A DNA stretch of 28,401 bases. It comes from a virus. The notes under the pieces were generated by a model that saw only the letters and a program-made list of their open reading frames with translations, was not told the origin of the DNA and did no database searches. Within the stretch, counting starts at the first letter, position 1; the number at the start of each line of letters is the position of its first letter. Positions 889 to 27,076 of this stretch are shown here, in pieces. The stretch covers positions 1 through 28,401 of IMG/VR virus record IMGVR_UViG_3300008113_001056; one strand, written 5' to 3'. Made by a program: the position numbers and the translations under genes.

Positions 889-1140
889 ATGTATAAAAGA
901 TTAAATGAATTAAACAGCGAATTATTTTCTATTAGACATGAAAAAAATGTTAAAGGCAAATCTGTAGGTTGGGACTGGAATATGTTACCATACACGATAA
1001 AAGAGGGTTGCACAACGTACATAGGCGCAGCTCCTGCAAGTGGTAAAACAGAACTTTGGTTTGAGTTTTTAATAAACCTTAGTTGTTTACATAATTGGAA
1101 TCATGTAGTTTTTTCACCTGAAACAGGTAGTAGTTATTGA
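889..1140 (+). CDS. RecA-fold (DnaB-like) replicative helicase, N-terminal fragment
   Basis: This 83-aa piece carries the Walker A loop GAAPASGKT (residues 46-54) followed by a helix and then the strand NHVVFSPETG (71-80). That strand is the position after Walker A where DnaB-type helicases have an F-S-x-E motif. The protein then stops at TGA 1138-1140. The rest of the ATPase domain lies in another frame from about 1127 to 1807. A complete phage helicase of this type would hydrolyse ATP to unwind the replication fork. As written, this fragment has an ATP-binding loop but no Walker B or arginine finger, so it should be inactive alone. It follows the DnaD-like gene by 2 nt. See the separate finding on the break. 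Confidence 0.7.
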   Translation: MYKRLNELNSELFSIRHEKNVKGKSVGWDWNMLPYTIKEGCTTYIGAAPASGKTELWFEFLINLSCLHNWNHVVFSPETGSSY

Positions 1141-1180
1141 CCCAATAGATGAAGATTTAACACTTGAAAAATTTTATGAT

Positions 1181-1807
1181 ATGATAGATGAGATTGAACG
1201 AAAACACGAGATAAACATTCATACTACTACAATTGACCCTTGGAATGAGCTAACAGAAGAATTTATACATTCAGATTTAGGGCGCGAAGATAAATACCTT
1301 AGTAGAATTTTAACGATAGCAAGAAAAAACGCACGTAAAACAAACAGACATAATTGTATTATAAACCATGTAAGAGACCAACCTATGGTTCACGCTAAAA
1401 CAATTGCAGGAACAGAAATAAGTTATTTTCCTATTCCAAGTGCAAGAGACTTCGCAGGTGGGCAGGTTTGGTTTAGAAAAGGTTTAAGCGTTTTAATTCC
1501 ATGGAGACCACCAAAAGATTTATTATTAGGAGACGGAACTGGAGCGCAAGAAAATGAAGTACATTTAAAAGTTGCTAAAAGTAAACCAAAGGGAGTTTCA
1601 AAAAACGGAATTTATAAATTATATTTGGATGTCGAAAAATATCAGTATTACATGATTGATAGTTTTGGGCGCAAAGTGTACGCACAACGAACGAAAGAAA
1701 CTACTTCAAATAGCTTCCCAACTAAAATACCAAAACAAGAACCCGACATAGTAAACGGAAAAGAACTATTATCTTTTAGCGAAAAAATGAAACAAACACC
1801 TTTTTAA
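1181..1807 (+). CDS. RecA-fold (DnaB-like) replicative helicase, C-terminal fragment
   Basis: This is the downstream half of the helicase at 889. The reading frame is open from about 1109, and helicase-like sequence begins at about 1130 (VVIDPIDEDLTLEKFYD), well before the first ATG at 1181. That shows the ATG is only the first available start, not the true beginning. Visible motifs are the Walker B-like strand TTTIDPWNEL, a helix of basic residues ending in NCIINHVRDQP (the sensor strand ending in H), and FPIPSARDFAGGQVWFRKG, the Gly-rich motif common in phage DnaB-like proteins. A final QENEVHLKVAKSKPKG resembles the DNA-contact/arginine-finger region, and a likely disordered tail follows. 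It lacks Walker A. Frame relative to the upstream half: +1. Confidence 0.7.
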   Translation: MIDEIERKHEINIHTTTIDPWNELTEEFIHSDLGREDKYLSRILTIARKNARKTNRHNCIINHVRDQPMVHAKTIAGTEISYFPIPSARDFAGGQVWFRKGLSVLIPWRPPKDLLLGDGTGAQENEVHLKVAKSKPKGVSKNGIYKLYLDVEKYQYYMIDSFGRKVYAQRTKETTSNSFPTKIPKQEPDIVNGKELLSFSEKMKQTPF

Positions 1808-3654: not shown

Positions 3655-4179
3655 ATGAAAACACTTAGGAAAATTCAACAAGAATTAAAATGCCCCAAAG
3701 GCAGTTTTAACTCATTCGGTAAATATAAATACCGAAGTGCAGAACAGATTTTAGAATCAGTTAAACCATTGCTACAAAAACACGATGCGTTATTACTTTT
3801 ATCTGATGAAATTATTCAAGTAGGTAATAAACTTTTTTTAAAAGCAAGTGCGCTTATTTCAGATGATGACGGAACAATAGAAGTTTTTGGATATGCTGAA
3901 ATGGGAGAACACAAAGGAATGTCATCTGAACAATGCACCGGCACAGCTTCAAGTTACGCACGTAAATACGCTTTAAATGGTTTGTTTTTAATTGATGAAA
4001 CGGAAAGCGACCCCGATTCAAAAGACAACACAAAGACGGAAGTAAAAAAACCTGCAATAGATAACGCACGTTTTGAAAAAGCTATCGAATCAATTAGGAA
4101 TAGTGAATTTAGCGTTGAGCAATTACAAGCTAAATTTGAATTAACTGAATTACAAAGCAAAGCATTGTTATTGATATGA
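3655..4179 (+). CDS. erf: ERF-family single-strand annealing recombinase
   Basis: This 174-aa protein carries the ERF signature: MSSEQCTGTASSYARKYALN (89-108) followed by GLFLIDE, the conserved region of ERF proteins. The N-terminal LRKIQQELKCPKG, FGKYKYRSAEQILESVKPLL and the strand pair LFLKASALISDDDG, IEVFGYAEM also fit. ERF proteins form rings that anneal complementary single strands during phage recombination and end joining. The C-terminal 50 residues are a linker plus a small helical region. It is the first gene after promoter P1, followed by a small protein and then the 5'-3' exonuclease, the classical pairing of a nuclease that makes single strands with a protein that anneals them. 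Its stop overlaps the next ATG by 4 nt. Confidence 0.9.
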   Translation: MKTLRKIQQELKCPKGSFNSFGKYKYRSAEQILESVKPLLQKHDALLLLSDEIIQVGNKLFLKASALISDDDGTIEVFGYAEMGEHKGMSSEQCTGTASSYARKYALNGLFLIDETESDPDSKDNTKTEVKKPAIDNARFEKAIESIRNSEFSVEQLQAKFELTELQSKALLLI

Positions 4180-16675: not shown

Positions 16676-18823
16676 ATGAACGAAATAGAAGTACCTATAA
16701 AGATAACAGGAATTGGAGCGATTAAAAAAGAACTCCGTGACCTAAAAGGCGAAATTGCAAATGCAACGGATAGCGAACAAATCAGAAAGTTATCACAACG
16801 AGCAGGTGAATTAAAAGACCAATTAGCGGATGCAAACGAGCAAGTTAATATATTTGCTTCGGGTTCTAAGTTTGAACAAGTCAACAACGGATTAGGCTCT
16901 ATTAAAGATTCAATCATGAGTTTGGATTTTGCCGAAGCAGGTGACAAAGCTAAACTTTTAACAGGTGCTTTAAAAAATATAAACCCTGCGGACTTTGCAG
17001 AGCAGTTTAAAGGCTTTGGAAAAATTATCGGTTCACTAGGTTCTGCAGTTGGTGTACTTGCAAAGCAGTTTATTTCATTCGGAGTTTCATTATTGGCTAA
17101 TCCTATCTTTTTACTAGTTGCGGTTATTACAGCCATTGTTGCTGCTATACTTATTTTCTTAAATAAAATCGGAGTTCTTAAAAAAGTAATAGATACTTTA
17201 ATGGCTCCCGTAAAAGCATTAATTCAAGGGTTTAAAGATTTAACTGACTGGTTAGGTTTAACAAGTTATGCAGCCGAAGAAAACGCGGCTAAAATGGAAG
17301 CAGCAAATGAACGCGTAATGGAAAGTTCAAAGAAACGTCAAGAAACGGTTGTTGGTGGTTTTGAATATGAAATTAAAATGGCTAAAATCTACGGTCAAGA
17401 TACTTTAGATTTAGAGTTAGGAAAAAGCAAAGCCATAGGAACGGAAGCAAAAAAGCGTTTAAGTTCAGCAGAAAAAGCCTTAGAAGCACAACGCGCACTT
17501 GGTGACAAAGCAAACAAAGAAACAATAAAGAAATTAAAGACTCAAATTGACGATGAGAAAAAGCTAATCATTGACCAACGTAGAGAACGTAATCTATTAG
17601 TTGCACAGGATGCGGTTGATAAACGCGAAGAAGCGAAAAAAGACTTAGAAGAAGACAAGAAAAACAACGAAGCAAAACGCAAGGCTCGAAACGATGCAAA
17701 TAAAAAAGCTATTGACGATGCTAAAAAGTTTGCAGCTGACAGATTAGCAGCACAACGTACTATTAGAGATATTGAAATTTCATTAATAAAAGAAGATTCA
17801 GACCGAGAAATCGTTGCAACGCAGGAAAAATACGCTAGGTTAATTGAAGATACTATCAAGAATGAGAATTTAACAAAAGACGAAAAGATAAAACTTCAAC
17901 AACTTTATCAAAAACAATTAGAAGCCGAACTAGGTAAACAAGAACAAGTTGAACTGGATGCGGAAAAAGAAAAGCAAAAAAAGTTATTAGATGAATATAA
18001 CGCTGGATTAATTAAACAAGCAGAAGAACAAGACAAACAATGGCTTAAACTTCAAGAATTAACAACGTCCAGAACTGAATTTGAAAAAACACAACTTCAA
18101 GTAAAATACGACCAAGAAATTGCAGCGGCGGAAGGTAACGCAGAATTACAAAAAGCATTAACAACAAAGCTACAACAAGACTTAAACGCTATTGATAAAA
18201 AAGCCGCTGAAGATTCTGTTAAAATAACACAGGAAGCCGAAAAGAAAAAACGCGATGCACAACTAGAAACAGCAAACAACGCCTTGCAAATAGCGGAAAG
18301 TTCAACAAAGGCTATACAAGCAGTTGGTGATATTGCTTTCGCTGCTAAAATGTCAAAAGTTAAAAAGGGAAGTAAAGAAGAAGAAGAACTTGCAAAGAAA
18401 CAATTTAAGTTTAACAAGGCGTTACAATTAGCAGGGGCGGTTGTAGATGCGGGTAAAGCTATCACAGCATCGTTGGCAGCAGCACCTTTAGCGGTTGGTG
18501 TTGTTCCTAATCCTGTCGGTATTGCTAATTTAGTAGCAACTGCTGCTGTATCGGCTGCTAATATTGCTAAAATTGCATCTACTCAATTTAATTCAGGAGG
18601 TGGCGGTGGTGGTCAAGCACCTAGTATTCCTGAAGCTAGTTCAACATCAACAACTGCTGCAAGTCCAAATGTAAGTTTATTTGGGCAAGGTAATGACATG
18701 AATAATGTAAGCGCACCACAGGAAGCGCAAACACAAATAACCGTTAAGGCAGTAGTTAGTGAAACAGAAATCACAAACACGCAACAGAAAATAGATAAGA
18801 TAAACCAAAACGCAACGCTATGA
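16676..18823 (+). CDS. tail tape measure protein
   Basis: This 715-aa protein is mostly long helix and coiled coil rich in A, E, K and Q, with one strongly hydrophobic stretch at about residues 138-162 (LLANPIFLLVAVITAIVAAI). A second hydrophobic, alanine-rich region lies near 585-640 (LQLAGAVVDAGKAITASLAA). A glycine run (GGGGGG) at about 643 leads into a flexible tail. This is the composition of tape measure proteins, which set tail length and enter the cell envelope with the DNA. By the usual relation of about 0.15 nm per residue, the tail would be close to 107 nm. It lies 4 nt after the tail-tip gene and overlaps the next gene by 4 nt. Confidence 0.9.
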   Translation: MNEIEVPIKITGIGAIKKELRDLKGEIANATDSEQIRKLSQRAGELKDQLADANEQVNIFASGSKFEQVNNGLGSIKDSIMSLDFAEAGDKAKLLTGALKNINPADFAEQFKGFGKIIGSLGSAVGVLAKQFISFGVSLLANPIFLLVAVITAIVAAILIFLNKIGVLKKVIDTLMAPVKALIQGFKDLTDWLGLTSYAAEENAAKMEAANERVMESSKKRQETVVGGFEYEIKMAKIYGQDTLDLELGKSKAIGTEAKKRLSSAEKALEAQRALGDKANKETIKKLKTQIDDEKKLIIDQRRERNLLVAQDAVDKREEAKKDLEEDKKNNEAKRKARNDANKKAIDDAKKFAADRLAAQRTIRDIEISLIKEDSDREIVATQEKYARLIEDTIKNENLTKDEKIKLQQLYQKQLEAELGKQEQVELDAEKEKQKKLLDEYNAGLIKQAEEQDKQWLKLQELTTSRTEFEKTQLQVKYDQEIAAAEGNAELQKALTTKLQQDLNAIDKKAAEDSVKITQEAEKKKRDAQLETANNALQIAESSTKAIQAVGDIAFAAKMSKVKKGSKEEEELAKKQFKFNKALQLAGAVVDAGKAITASLAAAPLAVGVVPNPVGIANLVATAAVSAANIAKIASTQFNSGGGGGGQAPSIPEASSTSTTAASPNVSLFGQGNDMNNVSAPQEAQTQITVKAVVSETEITNTQQKIDKINQNATL

Positions 18824-19272
18824 TAAGTTACCAAAGTTTAATAAATAAGATTATCAATTTTTACGATAATCACTTACAAGTTAAAAAAGTAGGTTCTGAC
18901 TTTCGGGAGCAGTTGGAAAACTTCGCTACAAAAGACGAGCGTTATCCATTGGTGTACATTTGCCCTGTTGATGCTGCGCCATCTGAATTAGGATTTACTA
19001 CTGAAATTAATTTAGAGGTTTATTGTTTTGATATTATACAAAAAGACCGAGCGAATATAAACGTAATTCTAAGCGATTGCCATTTAATCTTAAACGACCT
19101 TTATAATTGGTTTTTAAATTCAGACGATTACTCTTTCGATATTGTAGGAGTTCCTAGTATGACACCATTAAATAACGATTTACTAGATTACGCTGCTGGG
19201 TGGGTAATGACTTTAACTTGTTCAATCAATAATTATACTGATTGTCAAGTTCCTGAACAAATCGGAGATTAA
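18820..19272 (+). CDS. tail completion / tail terminator-like protein, 150 aa
   Basis: A compact mixed alpha-beta protein. LINKIINFYDNHLQVKKVG is the N-terminal helix, YPLVYICPVDAAPSE and TTEINLEVYCFDII are strands, LSDCHLILNDLYNWFLN is a helix, and DYAAGWVMTLTCSIN is a final strand. This order is that of tail terminator proteins, which cap the tail tube and join it to the head. Bacteroidota phage proteins ending in a WVMTLTC-like strand are found at this place. It overlaps the tape measure gene by 4 nt. The fold is my reading, not a computed match. Confidence 0.65.
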   Translation: MISYQSLINKIINFYDNHLQVKKVGSDFREQLENFATKDERYPLVYICPVDAAPSELGFTTEINLEVYCFDIIQKDRANINVILSDCHLILNDLYNWFLNSDDYSFDIVGVPSMTPLNNDLLDYAAGWVMTLTCSINNYTDCQVPEQIGD

Positions 19273-23932: not shown

Positions 23933-25153
23933 ATGGCATGGTATAATATATTCAAACAAAGTGAAAACAAAAGTATTGAAGTGGTTGAAGGTTATCAATC
24001 TTTTAGTACACCGTTTAGTAAAATTGGCGGTGGAAATTTATCATTGCCTTATGTAAACGGACGTTATCAAGTAGCTGGTTATATTCCATTCGGGATTGAA
24101 AATTTATATCCTGAAACTTTGAATCAAATGTATTATTCTAGTCCATTACACGGTGCAATAGTTGATTACAAAACGAATGCTGTAATCGGTGGTGGGTTTA
24201 ATATCATGATTGATAAGTTAACAAACGAGGAAAAAGTTGATTTATACGCATTCGAAAAAAAGATTAAACTTAAAAAGATTGCTCCAATAGTAACAAAACA
24301 GCTTGTAATTCATAACAGGGTTTACTTTAAATTGTGTTTTTCAGACAAAGGAAAGTTAACCAAAATAGAAAACCTTTCACCTGAAAAATTAAGACGTTCA
24401 CGTGACGGAAAAACGTATTTTATTTGCGAGGACTGGTCATCTAGAATAGACGTTTTAGAAATTGTTCCATACCACCCACTAAACAAAGAATACGAACAGC
24501 TGTTTATATACGAGTTACCTTGTATCGGTCAAGACTACTATCCGCTACCGCAGTATTCAAGCGCGTTAAACTTTGCGTTTTTAAGCGGTGAATTGAGTTA
24601 TACCATTGATAAGTTAAAAGGCGCGGAAAACGCAGGGAAAGCGGTTGCATTCTTTGCTAACTCAGCGGAACAGATGCCGAAGATTGAAAGTTTACCAACT
24701 AACTCAAACGATAAACTCTTTCAAGAGGCTTCAAGTTTGAATACAGAACAGATTTGTTTTGCTCACACTATCGACCCTATATTAATGGGAGTTCGTACAA
24801 CAGGTTCTTTGGGTTCTGGTTCGGATATTAAACAAGCCTATGTAATATTCGAAAAAAACGTAGTTAAACCTTTGCGAGAAAATGTCGAAGATATATTTAA
24901 TGAGTTATTGCATATTGCAAAAGTAAAAGGTGAGTTAAAAATAAACAACTTTCAAATCATTAACGAAACGATTGTTGAAGTTGAGGAGAGCGCATCTAAA
25001 ACAAGTGACGCGTTAAACTCATTAAGTCCTTTGGTAGCTACAAAAGTTTTGGGTTCAATGACTCCAAACGAAATCAGAGCCCTTGCAAGTTTGCCACCAA
25101 TTGAAGGTGGTGATATTGTGCCTAGTACAAACCCTGAAACACCTGTTGTATAA
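23933..25153 (+). CDS. portal protein, 406 aa
   Basis: It forms the ring at one head vertex through which DNA enters and leaves. The N-terminal GYIPFGIENLYPETLNQMYY and SSPLHGAIVDYKTNAVIGGG match portal proteins of Bacteroidota phages. IVTKQLVIHNRVYFKLCF and IENLSPEKLRRSRDGKTYFI form the next part. FLSGELSYTIDKLKGAENAG and RTTGSLGSGSDIKQAYVIFE are the stem and clip regions, and LGSMTPNEIRALASLPPIEG is the typical end. The large terminase docks on it and the adaptor gene follows with a 1-nt overlap (TAATG). It is complete and of normal length. Confidence 0.88.
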   Translation: MAWYNIFKQSENKSIEVVEGYQSFSTPFSKIGGGNLSLPYVNGRYQVAGYIPFGIENLYPETLNQMYYSSPLHGAIVDYKTNAVIGGGFNIMIDKLTNEEKVDLYAFEKKIKLKKIAPIVTKQLVIHNRVYFKLCFSDKGKLTKIENLSPEKLRRSRDGKTYFICEDWSSRIDVLEIVPYHPLNKEYEQLFIYELPCIGQDYYPLPQYSSALNFAFLSGELSYTIDKLKGAENAGKAVAFFANSAEQMPKIESLPTNSNDKLFQEASSLNTEQICFAHTIDPILMGVRTTGSLGSGSDIKQAYVIFEKNVVKPLRENVEDIFNELLHIAKVKGELKINNFQIINETIVEVEESASKTSDALNSLSPLVATKVLGSMTPNEIRALASLPPIEGGDIVPSTNPETPVV

Positions 25154-27048: not shown

Positions 27049-27076
27049 AACCCCTTTTAATCGAGGGGTTTTTTTA
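27049..27076 (+). terminator. Rho-independent terminator closing the lysis block
   Basis: AACCCCT (27049-27055) pairs perfectly with AGGGGTT (27064-27070) around an 8-nt loop, followed by a T-run to 27075. This ends late transcription. The stretch 27008-27168 has no gene and holds this hairpin plus two promoter boxes. Confidence 0.92.

Follow-up and report, generated by a model that had tools for sequence, protein, structure and literature searches.

A split replicative-helicase gene in a metagenomic viral contig probably reflects a short assembly dropout

The replicative-helicase gene of a 28,401 bp IMG/VR virus record, analysed here over its whole length (the window), lacks 122 bp present in nearly all relatives and is broken between its Walker A and Walker B motifs. 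Comparison with related contigs makes it very probable that this lesion is a short dropout made in assembly and not a real broken gene. A block of 99 bp is also missing from the portal protein gene of the same window. The features concerned are as follows.

889–1140, + strand: N-terminal part of the helicase, from Walker A to SPETG; 88–91 % identity to relatives over residues 1–82
1126–1138, + strand: junction GGTAGTAGTTATT, the site of 122 bp missing relative to 175 of 184 relative loci
1130–1807, + strand: C-terminal part of the helicase in frame 2, from Walker B onward; up to 87 % identity to relatives
23933–25153, + strand: portal protein gene without exactly 33 codons (99 bp), in frame, at about 24601/24602; the block is present in 80 of 80 relatives

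The N-terminal part of the helicase was encoded in frame 1 from the ATG at 889, through Walker A (GAAPASGKT), to HVVFSPETGSSY, where it ended at a premature TGA (1138–1140). Homology resumed in frame 2 from about codon 1130 (VVIDPIDEDLTLEKF...) and continued to the stop codon at 1805–1807. The initial annotation had described the gene at 889–1807 as broken, with its middle missing and a change from frame 1 to frame 2, and this description was borne out by both the ORFs and the relatives. The window therefore does not encode the Walker A–Walker B core in a single continuous reading frame, being frame-broken and about 40 residues short. The junction was compatible with a possible microhomology of 4–5 bp (TAGT or GTAGT, at about 1130–1134). 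The missing segment was not found elsewhere in the 28,401 bp, and the exact junction was found in no other viral contig.

Searches of viral contigs yielded about 190 related loci with the helicase gene, some contigs being counted twice. At position 1131 the relatives were exactly 122 bp longer than the window in 175 of 184 comparisons, and 110 or 113 bp longer in the remaining nine. This comparison with intact homologues, which had been proposed as a check, defined the missing piece as 122 bp or about 40 residues, and the original estimate of 60–90 residues was thus too high. Leaving aside loci cut by a contig end, nearly all of the loci could be read through without a stop, as one continuous ORF with no shift site; the only broken copies were those of the window, of L009 (a 104 bp deletion) and of L087, which has a small frameshift near residue 160 (about 2888–2898) compared with the approximately 96 % identical contigs L096–L099. 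No homologue without the segment was found among those examined, including distant ones at 20–33 % identity, and bacterial loci with 20–29 % identity retained the segment, as did two cultured Flavobacterium phages, FCV-1 and FL-1. The homologues in Flavobacterium phages FCV-1, FCL-2 and FL-1 resembled the helicase at about 31–33 % identity over 76–77 % of the protein, missing segment included, but differ from the window copy in being intact, and they are annotated as hypothetical proteins. A nucleotide search of cultured phage records gave no match. Both helicase remnants were conserved relative to four relatives (dN/dS 0.03–0.16), so that any real loss would have to be very recent.

The label of replicative helicase, given initially from the sequence, was supported by both fold and profile. 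An AlphaFold2 model of the intact relative P0003 (pLDDT 86, pTM 0.83) had a RecA-type motor fold, and its best matches among solved structures by Foldseek were DnaB (4esv) and Twinkle (8e2l), with an E-value of 4e-14. A profile of 26 relatives matched DnaB chains (E-value 0.002). Single-sequence Pfam searches of close relatives were silent and a PDB sequence search with a single protein returned nothing useful. The block lost from the window corresponds to the helices at residues 82–94 and 107–120, which follow the strand that ends in SPETG and precede the strand IVID. The family thus shares with DnaB and Twinkle the RecA-type motor-domain fold, as modelled for P0003, and the Walker A and Walker B motifs, but the window copy differs in lacking two core helices and in its changed frame, and in its deposited form it would not function as a member of the family. 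Taken literally, the gene is predicted from the fold to make no working helicase.

The second missing block was in the portal gene. The DNA flanks of this site were 94.0 and 98.7 % identical to those of L272, with exactly 99 bp skipped between them, and the corresponding 33 residues, present in all 80 portal relatives, were absent from the window. Loss at this site is in frame and hence easily overlooked. A scan of the whole window showed that the helicase and portal sites were the only ones at which relatives agreed on one size of extra block. An extra block at 27074, seen in 13 relatives, was not counted, as it is intergenic and its size varies from 66 to 124 bp. Comparison of the window with eleven relatives, nine of them near-full-length and two partial, revealed no other split gene.

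Clean losses were also found in sibling contigs. The near-full-length contig L009 (IMGVR_UViG_3300008114_000154) is missing 104 bp from the Walker A region of this helicase gene, at contig position 3864/3865, whereas L011 and L012, whose flanks are 100 % identical to it over 1.9–4.0 kb, retain these 104 bp. L010 has lost 108 bp in another gene and is elsewhere identical to L009. Indels of at least 10 bp were counted in 60 contig pairs with at least 98 % identity (202 kb). Twelve independent indels were identified (24, 33, 36, 104, 104, 108, 114, 120, 135, 142, 186 and 263 bp), of which seven fell at 104–142 bp. Their junctions had 0–5 bp of microhomology, the 120 bp case being the least clean. 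Losses of 104–142 bp occurred in seven contigs, six of them from records numbered 33000081xx or 33000082xx and the seventh from 3300044639. The losses in this range in L010, L029, L046, L130, L160 and L197, which affect various genes and are judged against contigs of 98–100 % identity, are probably assembly dropouts. A similar survey of the portal region (19 pairs, 91 kb) revealed indels of 10, 47 and 383 bp only and none of 104–142 bp, indicating that this class of error is not found everywhere.

These observations are best explained if a 122 bp block was dropped from the metagenomic contig and its two flanks were joined directly, as a local misassembly; the sampled phage itself would then probably carry an intact DnaB/Twinkle-like helicase gene. 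Support for a dropout comes from the portal loss and from the restriction of agreed block sizes to these two sites, from the clustering of sibling losses at 104–142 bp and the contrast between L009 and the intact L011 and L012, and from a junction absent from other viral contigs between two remnants that both still look constrained. Local misassembly is a better fit than two recent natural deletions to the pair of clean losses, each of about 100 bp, in conserved and functionally unrelated genes and to the sibling losses that have intact counterparts. The missing blocks and the sibling losses are directly visible in the sequences; from them we infer a cause in assembly or gap joining. In a benchmark of virome assemblers with phage Q33, at least one local misassembly was recorded for all assemblers but one (PMC6350398). 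The window resembles local misassembly as defined there, in that at both 1131 (122 bp) and about 24601 (99 bp) the flanks are collinear with relatives, a short block is gone and the join is clean, but it differs in that relatives, and not the sampled phage's true genome, served as the reference. Contig ends fell within 1.5 kb of the helicase in eight of 22 near-full-length contigs, against an expectation of 2.2 (p about 0.001 by simulation). This clustering suggests that the region is prone to break in assembly, although physical genome ends could contribute.

Several points count against a dropout. The possible microhomology at the junction could also have been left by a real deletion, the lengths of several sibling losses are divisible by three, as those of natural in-frame variants would be, and the portal-region survey lacked indels of the relevant size. 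In addition, L009 has near-identical contigs that keep its block, but the nearest relatives of the window were only about 85–90 % identical in the helicase (94–99 % in the portal gene, L272), and no near-identical sibling showing the intact form directly was found among the related contigs. 

Runs of N, a sign of scaffold gaps, were present neither in the window nor in 261 loci. Unusual sharing of the missing blocks between strains was not borne out for the helicase, where pairwise DNA identity was 0.72 in the block and 0.74 and 0.78 in its flanks, and had weak support for the portal gene (0.79, flanks 0.72 and 0.78). Nor were the ends of the sibling deletions consistently placed at boundaries of exact matches between strains.

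Since the conclusion rests on comparison, a small probability is retained for the alternative that 122 bp were truly and very recently deleted, perhaps through slippage at the short repeat GTAGT, inactivating the helicase in a population relying on its host or on co-infecting phages. This is what the deposited sequence shows; the junction has the possible microhomology, and the remnants are undecayed, as a recent event predicts. It would, however, require that the portal gene independently and recently lost about 100 bp as well, its junction is shared by no other contig, and among the approximately 190 loci loss within this segment recurs only in L009, for which the contigs that share its flanks exactly are intact. 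It is quite improbable that a real phage population has lost a core segment of its replicative helicase along with part of the portal protein and persists on host or helper functions. Reliance on the host helicase, one of three options raised by the initial annotation, is an unnecessary assumption and would leave the portal lesion unexplained; of the other two, assembly error was the best supported, by the portal loss and the sibling dropouts, and a defective prophage found no support.

A decaying prophage with a helicase pseudogene might account for one frame-broken gene and one shortened gene, but it is extremely unlikely: no integrase was detected among those window proteins that were tested, matches in bacterial genomes were limited to seven loci (best identity 29 %), no other gene was split relative to the eleven relatives compared and the codons of the remnants are conserved. 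The broken gene might still be expressed, either through programmed frameshifting at the junction or in the form of two polypeptides; in favour of this reading, each frame is open on its own side and an ATG at 1181 could serve as the start of the C-terminal part. The product would still be short of about 40 residues, including two RecA-core helices that no examined homologue lacks, and the uninterrupted ORFs of the relatives offer no shift site, making a working frameshifted or split helicase very unlikely.

If an assembly dropout is the correct explanation, clean losses of about 100–140 bp in public viral collections can mimic the breakage of essential genes or the in-frame loss of domains. 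Lesions such as those in the helicase and portal genes would mislead gene calling and the inference of dependence on host replication, and comparison of near-identical contigs provides a cheap test by which such losses can be caught.

Two further differences from related contigs were observed. In the contig of L009, the counterpart (L258, 12540–13280) of the window gene at 18820–19272 carries 310 bp more DNA, its C terminus being extended by about 97 unrelated residues. The replication-initiator-like gene upstream of the helicase (275–888) looks mosaic, with positions 275–660 being 94–96 % identical to L025 and L104 and positions 661–888 closest to L162 (87 %).
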